A stretch of 64,000 bases of DNA from Methanobacteriota archaeon (GTDB taxonomy: Archaea; Thermoplasmatota; Thermoplasmata; Thermoplasmatales; ARK-15), in the NCBI GenBank assembly GCA_009758405.1, contig WSBC01000016.1, positions 186,001 to 250,000 on the forward strand, given 5' to 3'. Below, piece by piece: positions 35,736-39,958 of this stretch. A program made the translations under genes and the position numbers. The stretch's first letter is position 1, and each line of letters starts with the position of its first letter. The notes under the pieces were generated by a model. It saw only the letters and a program-made list of their open reading frames with translations, had not been told where the DNA came from and did no database searches.

Positions 35736-36196
35736 AAAAATAAGATATCATTCATTATTAAAATTTTTTATTTTATTAGCCTAGTAGAAATCCTTTTTAA
35801 AAAATGATTTATTATTTTATTTATTTTGTAAGTGTTGCATAATAAAAATTTCATAATTAAATTCTTTCTGGAATTGATTCTATTAATCGAGCTAATCAAA
35901 AACCAAGATTTATTTTAATTAATGTACCTTTTCTATTAATTTCATTTATAATCCCTTAATTTTAATAGAAATCCTTATATTTATGTCTTAAATATTATTG
36001 TTGTAATGCTTGCACTTAAATCCATCAATTAGACCAATGAAGGACTAAAAGGGCCATCAATTGAAGCAATGATCCAGTCAAAAGATGGGGAGCAGATGAT
36101 GGTAAGTAGGATCCTTAGATAGGATTTCTACAAAGCCATTTTATTAATTTGTGTAAATTAAAAAAAAATAAAATATTGAAATACAATCTAATTATC
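35736..36196. other. 461-base gap upstream of the ECF transporter operon
   Basis: AT-rich. It contains the broken reading frame listed separately (36006-36119) and otherwise only TATA-like elements; one lies near 35955-35995. The promoter of the ECF operon should be in the last 60 bases, where AAATTAAAAAAAAATAAAAT is the only AT-rich candidate. Confidence 0.35.
36006..36119 (+). pseudogene. Possible decayed gene fragment with an in-frame TAG
   Basis: From ATG at 36006 one frame reads MLALKSIN, TAG, then TNEGLKGPSIEAMIQSKDG and EQMMVSRILR, TAG at 36120. The composition is more protein-like and GC-richer than the surrounding gap. It may be the remnant of a transposase or other lost gene. No parent family is recognised, and no terminal repeats are visible. 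Confidence 0.3.
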
Positions 36197-36826
36197 ATGA
36201 ACGACTATAGTCAATATACATTAAAATGGAAAAGTGGCCAAATAACAACTACTCAGTATACGTTATATGCAATTCAGATTGCTGTGGTAATACTTCTTTC
36301 TTGGTTAGGAGTGGTGGCAACTCCTGTTGTGGGGCCAGGCATTGGATTTCTCTACTGGGCTTATCCCTTTTTTATAGTTTTTACATGGTGGTGGGGCCTT
36401 TGGGGTGTTTTGTCTGCATTTATTGGGTGTTTCATAGGTGCAGGTCTTTTGACAGGTCTTCCGCTCATACCTTCCCTTGCATTCAGTGTCGGTGATTTAG
36501 TTCCTGCACTCTTAGTTTTACTTTTATACAGGGGCTATTTAAGAAAAATAGGTGTTGATCCACTTGGAAGGGACATATTAAAAAATAAAAAAGCTCTCTT
36601 CTGGTTTGTTTTCTGGGTAATGGGAATAACAAATATAATAGGAGGTCTATGGGGAGTTTGGGTACTTGTTTGGCTTGGTTTTGTTCCTGCAAATGCATAC
36701 TGGTTAGGCTCAGCTCTTTGGATAATAGGTGATGCTATAGTTCTAATAATAGCTCCATTTCTTTCAAGAGCCCTCACACCCATTGTTGAAAGATATGGTC
36801 TTATATCAAAAGGACTTATATCTTAA
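36197..36826 (+). CDS. ECF transporter S component (substrate-binding membrane protein)
   Basis: 209 residues, six or so membrane segments with many Trp and Gly residues: IQIAVVILLSWLGVVATPVV, FFIVFTWWWGLWGVLSAF, FIGAGLLTGLPLIP, VGDLVPALLVLLLYRGYL, FWFVFWVMGITNIIGG and WLGSALWIIGDAIVLIIAPF. This is the topology of S components. The ligand is not recognised from sequence; the downstream fusion suggests a purine-like base. The ATG at 36197 starts a protein MNDYSQYT; an earlier in-frame ATG at 36149 is less likely. First gene of the operon with the T and A proteins. Confidence 0.75.
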   Translation: MNDYSQYTLKWKSGQITTTQYTLYAIQIAVVILLSWLGVVATPVVGPGIGFLYWAYPFFIVFTWWWGLWGVLSAFIGCFIGAGLLTGLPLIPSLAFSVGDLVPALLVLLLYRGYLRKIGVDPLGRDILKNKKALFWFVFWVMGITNIIGGLWGVWVLVWLGFVPANAYWLGSALWIIGDAIVLIIAPFLSRALTPIVERYGLISKGLIS

Positions 36827-36836
36827 AAGTGGTCTA

Positions 36837-37712
36837 ATGAATAAAAGAGAGAACAGGATGGGTGAAAAAAGATACGTAAAAACCATTCTTTTTAATGCTA
36901 AGGCAGATTCTTTCTTTGTTAATTTACATCCATTTACAAAATTTGCTATTTTTCTTTTTCTTTCTATAGCTGTTATTATAGCAATGACAAAACCTTATCC
37001 TGACCTTTTATTTTCCTTTTTTATTATGATAGCAGTTGTTTATTTTCTAATTGAATCACGAACAATAAAATACCTTGTTAAAAGTTATCTAGTGTTAATA
37101 ATTATAGCACTTTTTGTCCTATTGATATGGTGGCTTGTTTTTAATCAAGTTGGTGTTCATGTTATCATTTCATTTTCGATTTTCGGGGCTGTCTTAAAAA
37201 TAACAAAGGAATCTTTATACATAGGTCTCGCAAAGGTATTTGGATACGGAGCTATGGCCCTTTTGACACTTCTGATTCTTATGACCACTAGGGATATTGA
37301 AATTGTAAATGCACTTAACCAATTAGGTATTTCTTTTAAAAAGACCTTCTTTATATCACTTATATTTAGGAGTCTCAACATAATGGCAGAAGATCTTGAA
37401 TCTATCAGGCATGCTCAATTTGCGAGGGGTGGAAAAACAAATAAGAAAAATCCATTTTTAAAAGCAAAGGAGTTTTTGGCATTATCTGTACCCATAACAG
37501 CACTTATGATAAAAAGGGCTGTAGAAATGGGACAGGCGCTTGAGGCAAGGGGTTTTTCTAAAGCAGGTAAGCTTTCTCAACCTGTGGTAAAGAAAAACAT
37601 TGGATTACTAGATTATTCTTTTCTAACAATATCAATTCTCTTACTTTATATTTCTATAACAATGAACATAACCCAGGTTCTAGGTGGTGTACAATGGCTG
37701 AACCTGTTATAG
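36837..37712 (+). CDS. ecfT: ECF transporter T component (EcfT)
   Basis: Membrane scaffold joining the S component to the ATPases. About 291 residues; segments KFAIFLFLSIAVIIAM, LLFSFFIMIAVVYFLI, YLVLIIIALFVLLIWWL and a C-terminal TISILLLYISITM are membrane-like. Two coupling motifs with Ala-Arg-Gly occur: AQFARGGK and ALEARGFSK, which fit into the ATPase grooves. The start may be 36837 or the Met seven codons later (36858); both have weak sites. It begins ten bases after the S component and overlaps the ATPase gene by 19. Confidence 0.88.
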   Translation: MNKRENRMGEKRYVKTILFNAKADSFFVNLHPFTKFAIFLFLSIAVIIAMTKPYPDLLFSFFIMIAVVYFLIESRTIKYLVKSYLVLIIIALFVLLIWWLVFNQVGVHVIISFSIFGAVLKITKESLYIGLAKVFGYGAMALLTLLILMTTRDIEIVNALNQLGISFKKTFFISLIFRSLNIMAEDLESIRHAQFARGGKTNKKNPFLKAKEFLALSVPITALMIKRAVEMGQALEARGFSKAGKLSQPVVKKNIGLLDYSFLTISILLLYISITMNITQVLGGVQWLNLL

Positions 37713-39958
37713 AGATTAGGAATTTATACTGGAAATATCCAAATATATCTGAAAAATCAACTTTATTTAAGATAGAGAATCTGAACCTGAAAATATTTAG
37801 AAATGAGTTTTTTGGTATTACAGGGGCGACAGGTTCAGGAAAATCCACAATATGCCAGATCATAGCCGGCCTCATACCTCATCAAATAAAATTACCAGAG
37901 GATAAATTGACAGAGTATTTTCGCGGTGAAGTGTATGTTCTAGGTGAACTTGTTTCGGCCTTAGAAAAAAAAGAAAATTCCTATATGATTATAGGAAAGG
38001 GCTCGATGGCCCCCGAGGTAGGACTGGTAATGCAGGACCCTGAAAGTCAGTTTCTTACAATGAGTGCACTGTCCGAAATAACTCTTGGATTGCAAATAAT
38101 TGGTCTTCCAAAAGAAGAAATTATGAGGAGAGTAAAGGAATCATTAAGTATAGTTGGTCTTGATGATCTTTATCCTATACTGGATAAATTACACCCCTCT
38201 GAACTTTCTGGAGGGCAGAAGCAAAGGCTTATTATAGCAAGTTTTATTGCAATGAGACCAAAAATATTAATTTTGGATGAACCCACTTCAGATCTTGACT
38301 CGGCAGGGAAAATTGAGATAATAGAAGCAATTGCAAATCTAAAAAAGATAGGAGATATTACAGTTATACTTGTAGAGCATGATCCAGAAATACTGAAAAG
38401 ATTTACAGACAGAGTTGCGGTACTATCGGAGGGAAATATAATTGCAATAGATTCTCCAGAAAATATATTTTCAAATAAGGATCTAAGGAAATATGTGGAA
38501 GTATCTGAGCTTGAAAGCATAATAGAGAGTGATGAGGATTTTCTTAAAAAGATTGATGCAGATGCGGCAAGAAGCTTTAAGCCAAAGAGAAATGAAATAA
38601 ACTTAGGTGAAGTGGCAATTGAAGTAAAAGATCTTTTTTATGAGTATCCAGATGGTGCTCTAGCTTTGAATGGTATCGATATGAATATTAAAAAGGGAGA
38701 ATTTGTAGCTCTCATTGGACAAAATGGATCGGGTAAAAGTACTTTTTCAAAGGTTATTTCTGGTTATTTAACTGGATGGAAAGGGATGGTGAAAATCCTA
38801 GGGGAAGATATATCAAATAAAAGGATAAGAGAGAGAATACCTGCAATCGTGGGATATGTATTTCAAAATCCGGATCATCAGATATTCAATAGGAGGGTTG
38901 ATTCAGAAATAGAATATGGTCTATGGAATATAGGAATAAAAGAAGAAGAGATTAAAAAAAGGGTGGATGAAACACTTGCAAGGGTAGGATTATTAAGGAA
39001 AAGGGATGAAGATCCCTTATTTCTTAGCAGGGGAGAAAAGAGGAGACTTGCTCTTGCAAGTGTTATAGCTATGAAACCACAAATACTTATTGTAGACGAG
39101 CCAACCACTGGACAGGATTACAGAATGTCTAAAGAAATTATGGAAATATTGATGGAAATGAACAGGGAAGGTTCTACAATTATAGTAATTACCCACGATA
39201 TGAGGCTTGTTGCCGAATATTGCAGAAGAGTAATAGTAATGAAAAGGGGAAAAATAATATTTGATGGAAAACCTGAAAATCTATTTGAGAATGAGGAATT
39301 ATTGAAGGAATCGTCCTTAATAGCTCCTAGGGAGGTTCAACTCTCCAAAAAACTTAAAGAGACTGGAATAATGCAAGATCTTCTCCTTAGTGCTAGAGAA
39401 TGGTTAGAGTTCCTAAAATTTGAAAATGAGAAAAAAAGATATGTTCTATTGACCTTTGAGGCAATGAAAAAACATTCTAAAAACCTTTCCAGAGAAATAA
39501 TATCTAAGGCAGGTAAACCTGATGCCATAGTTTACATAGAAAGGGGAGGGATGGTGATAGGTAGACTTATGAGCGATTATCTTGGTGTCAAGGATCTTTA
39601 TGGCATAAAGGCCTCATATTATACAGAAGATGGCATTCCAAGTACACATGTTAGTGTAGGAGAGATTTCAATTAACATACCGATTAATAATTATATACTT
39701 CTTGTTGATGACATTGCCGATACTGGTAAAACAATAGAAGCGGTAATGGAAAAGCTCAAAAAAATTACACAAAATATTAAGGTCTGCACCATTGCCTATA
39801 AACCACATTCTTCAATAAAGCCAGATTTCTACTCATATATTGTAGATAATGATACTTGGGTTGTTTTTGAATATGAGGAACAGGAAACAAGAAGATCATT
39901 TGAAAAAAGGAACAATGAAATAGGCCTAAAATTCATAGAAGAAAAATTTGGAAGGTGA
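37694..39958 (+). CDS. ECF transporter tandem ATPase fused to a phosphoribosyltransferase
   Basis: 754 residues in three parts. ABC1 (about 5-245): Walker A GATGSGKST at 44-52, signature LSGGQKQR, Walker B ILILDEPTSDLD. ABC2 (about 310-545): Walker A GQNGSGKST near 342, an unusual signature LSRGEKRRL, Walker B ILIVDEPTTGQD. The C-terminal 180 residues are a PRTase of the Hpt/Gpt-like type: AIVYIERGGMVIGRLMSDYLG, IKASYY, and the PRPP loop LLVDDIADTGKT at about 670-681. Such domains attach ribose phosphate to a free base. The reading frame is continuous across the join, and ecfT overlaps its start. It probably loads an imported base with phosphoribose, trapping it in the cell. Confidence 0.9.
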   Translation: MAEPVIEIRNLYWKYPNISEKSTLFKIENLNLKIFRNEFFGITGATGSGKSTICQIIAGLIPHQIKLPEDKLTEYFRGEVYVLGELVSALEKKENSYMIIGKGSMAPEVGLVMQDPESQFLTMSALSEITLGLQIIGLPKEEIMRRVKESLSIVGLDDLYPILDKLHPSELSGGQKQRLIIASFIAMRPKILILDEPTSDLDSAGKIEIIEAIANLKKIGDITVILVEHDPEILKRFTDRVAVLSEGNIIAIDSPENIFSNKDLRKYVEVSELESIIESDEDFLKKIDADAARSFKPKRNEINLGEVAIEVKDLFYEYPDGALALNGIDMNIKKGEFVALIGQNGSGKSTFSKVISGYLTGWKGMVKILGEDISNKRIRERIPAIVGYVFQNPDHQIFNRRVDSEIEYGLWNIGIKEEEIKKRVDETLARVGLLRKRDEDPLFLSRGEKRRLALASVIAMKPQILIVDEPTTGQDYRMSKEIMEILMEMNREGSTIIVITHDMRLVAEYCRRVIVMKRGKIIFDGKPENLFENEELLKESSLIAPREVQLSKKLKETGIMQDLLLSAREWLEFLKFENEKKRYVLLTFEAMKKHSKNLSREIISKAGKPDAIVYIERGGMVIGRLMSDYLGVKDLYGIKASYYTEDGIPSTHVSVGEISINIPINNYILLVDDIADTGKTIEAVMEKLKKITQNIKVCTIAYKPHSSIKPDFYSYIVDNDTWVVFEYEEQETRRSFEKRNNEIGLKFIEEKFGR

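Follow-up and report, generated by a model that had tools for sequence, protein, structure and literature searches.

A predicted energy-coupling factor importer of 6-oxopurine bases with a phosphoribosyltransferase fused to its ATPase pair in an archaeon of the Thermoplasmatales

We analysed a 64,000-nucleotide stretch of an archaeal genome (assembly GCA_009758405.1, contig WSBC01000016.1, positions 186,001 to 250,000 of the forward strand; the whole stretch is hereafter called the window). Three adjacent genes in it, at 36197-39958, very probably encode an energy-coupling factor (ECF) importer of the 6-oxopurine bases guanine, hypoxanthine and xanthine with nucleotide conversion built in. The last gene encodes both ATPases in one polypeptide, which continues into a phosphoribosyltransferase (PRTase) domain. 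In the mechanism that we propose, the S component would bind a 6-oxopurine base on the outside, and the fused ATPase chain together with EcfT would power import. The C-terminal PRTase, held at the cytoplasmic face, would then convert the base and phosphoribosyl pyrophosphate (PRPP) to GMP, IMP or XMP, and formation of the nucleotide would prevent the base from leaking back. From comparative sequence analysis we infer with good support that 6-oxopurines are imported and converted to mononucleotides by the fused PRTase; the ligand in the window organism, the activity of the PRTase and the aid that nearness would give to capture are likewise inferred.

Architecture of the three-gene locus

All three genes lie on the + strand. 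The S component is encoded by a 209-residue open reading frame (36197-36826) with six predicted transmembrane helices. After a gap of 10 bp follows the gene for EcfT, the CbiQ-type transmembrane coupling subunit (36837-37712; 291 residues counted from the ATG), and the fusion gene (37694-39958; 754 residues) shares 19 bp with the EcfT reading frame. As expected of an ECF transporter, EcfT matches the CbiQ model (PF02361, 2.1e-20) and carries the arginine coupling motifs FARGG and EARGF, the two ARG motifs lying in QFARGGK and LEARGFS (about 37422-37430 and 37545-37553). These reading frames and domain models agree with an earlier note on this DNA, made from the sequence alone, which had described three closely spaced or overlapping genes for an S component, an EcfT with two Ala-Arg-Gly motifs and a 754-residue protein with two ATP-binding cassette (ABC) modules and a PRTase domain. 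An assembly or frame artefact, or a chimera, was ruled out by full-length homologues of the fusion, 42-85% identical, in many independent genomes.

The first ABC module (ABC1, 37694-38563) contains the Walker A sequence GATGSGKS followed by MQDPESQF, LSGGQ, DEPTSDLD and VEHD, and the second (ABC2, 38606-39328) contains GQNGSGKS, FQNPDHQIF, LSRGE, DEPTTGQD and ITHD. The protein gave two ABC_tran stretches (1.4e-51), and the ECF ATPase models TIGR04521 and TIGR04520 matched it above cut-off in two stretches (4e-129 and 3e-127). An AlphaFold (AF2) model of the fusion, built from 13 of its relatives, had a mean predicted local distance difference test score (pLDDT) of 83.9, and Foldseek matched each of its ABC modules to ECF/CbiO ATPases (TMt 0.84-0.91). 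The earlier note had drawn attention to the odd ABC2 signature LSRGE (39023-39037, residues 444-448). This signature is indeed present and is conserved by lineage, being found in all fusions of two families of the window's order (f1 and f3), with LGRGQ or LGKGQ in other lineages; by itself it is no evidence of a special mechanism. A helical linker (39329-39457), the first half of which is retained in the bacterial PRTase-less protein described below, leads from ABC2 to the PRTase.

The PRTase domain (residues 589-735, 39458-39898; PF00156 at 589-725, 7.8e-21) contains a complete 6-oxopurine PRTase active site as judged by alignment, and would be expected to be active. The pyrophosphate (PPi) loop is IERGG (residues 615-619, 39536-39550). 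The PRPP loop, which had been placed at about residues 670-681, is present at residues 669-680 (LLVDDIADTGKT, 39698-39733), with two acidic residues and the catalytic aspartate in VDDIADTGKT. K703 (in KP) and W722 (in DTW; 39800-39859) provide the lysine and the aromatic residue of the base pocket, and R617, D672, D676, T677, G678, K703 and W722 are invariant in our alignment (A2). From the sequence pattern, K703 and W722 are presumably the equivalents of K115 and W134 of Escherichia coli XGPRT, and given the roles of the conserved positions in that protein, we take the domain to be a 6-oxopurine enzyme. The nearest solved structures are those of Pyrococcus horikoshii (1vdm, 7e-17) and Sulfolobus GpT-1 (4trb) and GpT-2 (4z1o), followed by E. 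coli XGPRT; the top NCBIfam model is xanthine PRTase, with HGPRTase behind it. The fused domain lies outside the stand-alone GpT-1 group, since GpT-1-like sequences, including thermoplasmatal ones, form their own clade (100/100).

The best evidence that the 209-residue protein acts as an S component appears to be the motif A25xxxA29 in its first helix (36269-36283), through which ECF S components dock onto EcfT. It is invariant in the 13 of 13 copies that adjoin EcfT and the fused ATPases, with V or L instead in two orphan copies; a published survey links AxxxA to EcfT docking (PMC11109136). Identity among the ECF-linked copies is 69-95%. By sequence comparison the protein is a new family, outside the S-component families of Pfam and NCBIfam: no S-component model in these libraries (BioY, ThiT, YkoE, QueT and so on) matched at E up to 10. 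Membership of a known S family was also sought among PDB sequences, and all three sources yielded only a weak MASE1 match and a chance PKS13 stretch. The earlier note had allowed that the PRTase might lack catalytic residues on alignment, or that the S component might fall into a known family for a ligand other than a base, such as thiamine or biotin; the catalytic residues are kept, and the family searches gave no such match. An AlphaFold model from eight close sequences has low confidence (pLDDT 64), and the helices it predicts, at residues 18-41, 49-64, 68-86, 90-117, 131-159 and 165-200, are to be read accordingly. Foldseek placed YkoE (5edl) and BioY (4dve) at the top with a probability of 0.54 and E > 0.5; because of the pLDDT and the lack of significance of these matches, we do not claim the S fold from structure. 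As a separate observation, the weak match to MASE1, a sensor domain, recurs in five of eight family members (E 0.012-0.024), and MASE1 may have an S-component fold.

The S gene is preceded by AT-rich intergenic DNA of about 460 bp. Upstream of S, at 36006-36120, a short remnant of a reading frame, cut by a stop, resembles a damaged gene start. Genes from 39992 onwards (chaperone-like and OB-fold/RPA-like) are not part of the system, because they differ in another genome (G004) and in f3.

Ligand class and purine context

Orthologous operons in three genomes of a single bacterial order (L039/G320, L040/G321 and G323) encode S, EcfT and the double ATPase without a PRTase. Their S components are 73-75% identical to that of the window. 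A purine riboswitch (RF00167, CUGACUAC) lies directly upstream of the S gene in all three, with scores of 78.9, 81.3 and 84.6 bits against a gathering score of 37. Nucleotide 74, the identity of which separates guanine from adenine aptamers (PMC11477304), is C in each case, placing them in the guanine class. In all three operons a terminator-like hairpin with a T-run follows the riboswitch upstream of S; this layout fits a switch that would turn expression off when base is plentiful, as expected of an importer. The ligand assignment thus gains independent support, because a guanine-class riboswitch controls the bacterial orthologues. The record names of L039 and L040 (Thermotoga sp., bacterium), as of an archaeal locus, L041 (Ca. 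Marsarchaeota), are labels of metagenome-assembled genomes and may not match the true taxon.

It is possible that the cargo is another purine-like compound, such as a nucleoside, a 7-deazaguanine like preQ0 or another base, and that the PRTase either acts on this compound or is there incidentally. The ligand assignment is indeed an indirect one, a GpT-1-like PRTase is present separately in the window genome, and orphan S homologues adjoin nucleoside genes. In G548 and G625 such homologues (44-45% identical) stand beside an amidohydrolase of the nucleoside/guanine deaminase superfamily and RpiB, with a PNP-type phosphorylase in G625. The distant S of L142 has RpiB, an amidohydrolase and a gene resembling purine-nucleoside phosphorylase as neighbours. 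These surroundings at the same time favour a purine ligand for the S family. However, the guanine-class aptamers in three of three bacterial operons, the absence of a preQ1 riboswitch from the loci searched, and a PRTase that requires a free base and carries the 6-oxopurine pocket pattern make a different cargo decidedly unlikely. The orphan S homologues of L141 and L142, which lack AxxxA and lie amid purine-nucleoside genes and rpiB, are possibly solitary purine transporters or sensors.

PurL, which serves de novo purine synthesis, is absent from the 11 tested carriers of S outside the window's order, namely the three bacteria and eight of eight small-genome archaea; the PurL model matched 14 of 14 control genomes. 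It is present in nine of nine tested genomes of the window's order. The absence of PurL in the small-genome archaea is consistent with purine import but not specific to it, carriers only having been compared. Within the bacterial order, a tie between S and loss of PurL was not significant (S in three of six PurL-less and none of four PurL-bearing genomes, Fisher p 0.17). The PRTase-family matches of G673 are the fusion and PRPP synthetase only, and G659 (a contig of 989,838 bases) has an Apt-like protein besides these two. As far as sequence matches can tell, neither of these two genomes offers a candidate 6-oxopurine PRTase besides the fused domain. By sequence reading, the window genome also encodes PyrE, PurF, PRPP synthetase, a GfcR-like protein and a GpT-1-like PRTase separate from the fusion. 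Other families of the class (L100-L114) keep the stand-alone GpT-1-like gene next to those for adenine deaminase and a second PRTase, in what looks like a cluster for the salvage of adenine to IMP; these neighbours favour a 6-oxopurine role for the stand-alone sister group.

Natural variants and the question of coupling

A count of genomes with the same fusion, as suggested in the earlier note, gave 20 in the order to which the window belongs (families f1 and f3, plus genus g16 of f6) and six small-genome archaea of another class, that of G322, whose genomes encountered here measure 0.5-1.5 Mb. Among 300 sampled genomes of the window's class, 13 carry it. A tree of the double ATPase separates f1 and f3 from a second group, which holds g16, the bacteria and the small-genome archaea. 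G036 branches among the small-genome archaea (98/96), the bacteria next to G322 and G671 (99/99), with moderate support near the root (87-91). The simplest reading of this tree would be horizontal transfer together with a bacterial loss of the PRTase domain. The alternative, that the bacterial PRTase-less protein represents the ancestral state, is not favoured, the bacteria nesting beside the fusion-bearing G322 and G671.

Several lineages carry additional PRTase sequences. A second PRTase gene lies directly behind the fusion in G322 and G671; the loci with such a second gene are L041 (13842-14441) and L136. In G036, G659, G673, G690 and G563 a degenerate second PRTase piece is fused on, without a PRPP loop but with an ARLLSD.LGVK-like helix; the G267 fusion is of equal length to these. 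The loci whose fusions end in a pseudo-PRTase are L055, L112 and L137-L140. Type I PRTases are usually dimers, and for this reason we read the extra genes and pseudo-PRTases as partners of the single fused domain, which probably dimerises, the second copy being supplied separately or in cis.

These same pseudo-PRTases bear on the idea that the domain is a regulatory sensor, in which binding of PRPP or nucleotide gates the ATPases as in the PRTase-fold regulators PurR and PyrR. In its favour, fused pseudo-PRTases without catalytic loops occur in G036 and small-genome archaea, and the fused PRTase copies there have an altered PRPP loop (IDEIVDTGKT, VDELVDTGKT). Apart from these changes, however, the residues of catalysis and of the base pocket are kept, and in G673 the fused domain is the sole base-PRTase candidate found. 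The f3 family (14 genomes, one clade) is especially informative. Here S and EcfT are missing from the neighbourhood and, except for one weak EcfT match, from the genome; ABC1 has lost its switch histidine (VEHD to VEQD or VEKD) or, in g13, most of its motifs. Mean identity in f3 is 75% for the PRTase against 56% for ABC1, whereas genomes bearing S and EcfT show the opposite ranking (52% against 58%). A regulator of the lost transporter would be superfluous, yet the PRTase is the best-conserved module; its retention while ABC1 decays implies that it is useful by itself. The fused PRTase is thus probably an enzyme and not a mere sensor, a role that we regard as highly unlikely. The f3 fusions without S and EcfT (L043-L054, L056, L057) adjoin divergent major facilitator superfamily transporters and a dihydrodipicolinate-synthase-like aldolase.

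Some observations weigh against the proposed importer with built-in conversion. Searches of the window, L041 and L124 loci revealed no riboswitch, so that the archaeal ligand rests on the 70-75% identity of the S components and on the PRTase. Foldseek gave no significant structural match for the low-confidence S model. Since PurL, PurF and the separate GpT-1-like PRTase are also encoded in the window genome, the fused enzyme is not its sole purine route. Furthermore, the bacteria import without a PRTase domain and f3 keeps the fusion without S and EcfT. That the halves can exist apart argues against strict obligate coupling across the family, but not against it in the fused full systems.

How closely transport and conversion are linked can be weighed from the same variants. 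We give an even chance to an arrangement, compatible with the proposed importer and enzyme, in which fusion fixes only stoichiometry and location: the base would be freed into the cytoplasm and then phosphoribosylated, with no kinetic coupling. The PRTase-less bacterial orthologues and the transporter-less f3 fusions point this way, as does the helical linker through which the PRTase is joined, the model giving no interface with the transport path. On the other hand, the fusion has been retained in two lineages and a dimer partner repeatedly added in cis or in the operon, so position in the complex seems to matter. Strict vectorial phosphoribosylation, in which base released by S would pass directly to the PRTase and reach the cytoplasm only as mononucleotide, with PRPP gating transport, seems unlikely to us. 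The earlier note's proposal of purine-base import with trapping as a mononucleotide therefore holds up through the riboswitch, the PRTase active site and the PurL-less carriers, while the coupling that it described as 'almost a group translocation' is a possibility, the two halves being able to occur apart.

Relation to known systems and significance

In overall make-up the system resembles the YkoEDC type of ECF transporter with a fused double ATPase: both have S, EcfT, one chain with two ABC modules, AxxxA in helix 1 of S and the ARG motifs of EcfT. It differs in an S component that matches no known family, including YkoE (PF09819), in the C-terminal PRTase and in the purine-base ligand class proposed here. 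The PRTase shares the PF00156 fold, the PPi and PRPP loops and the KP/DTW residues with archaeal 6-oxopurine PRTases (P. horikoshii Gpt 1vdm, Sulfolobus GpT-1 and GpT-2) and E. coli XGPRT, but is fused to an ECF ATPase pair. Like the queuosine-precursor transporter QrtT, it would import a purine-derived base via ECF under a riboswitch; QrtT differs in its 7-deazaguanine ligand, preQ1 riboswitch and S family, and no fused PRTase is reported there (PMC11477304). Permeases of the xanthine/uracil type share import of guanine- or xanthine-type bases and the riboswitch class (PMC11477304), but are secondary transporters of a single polypeptide with neither ATPase nor enzyme domain. In the bifunctional HGPRT/adenylate kinase reported from Zobellia (PMC7326950), a salvage PRTase is likewise fused to a second protein of one metabolic flow, but this partner is a kinase and not a transporter.

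The earlier note knew of no described system of this make-up. In the open-access literature, with subscription journals, preprints and annotation databases outside the search, we also found none, that is, no ECF-PRTase fusion and no ECF operon with a guanine riboswitch. The S family and the PRTase fusion are new to the searched libraries and open-access papers; in the features examined, the system otherwise conforms to an ECF transporter whose two ATPases are fused.

We know of no earlier ECF transporter for ordinary purine bases, and none appeared in the open-access papers searched. The system would be the first, and a riboswitch would indicate the ligand class of its new S family. PRTase-driven group translocation of purines is an old idea, and an ATPase fused to a substrate-consuming enzyme makes it addressable on one purified complex. 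Moreover, nature provides controls: a transporter without PRTase in bacteria, a fusion without transporter in f3, and versions with an extra or pseudo-PRTase partner. If the vectorial reading were true, an ECF transporter would have given rise to a second group-translocation principle besides the sugar phosphotransferase system. For the PurL-less small-genome archaea, the finding shows a possible route of purine supply.

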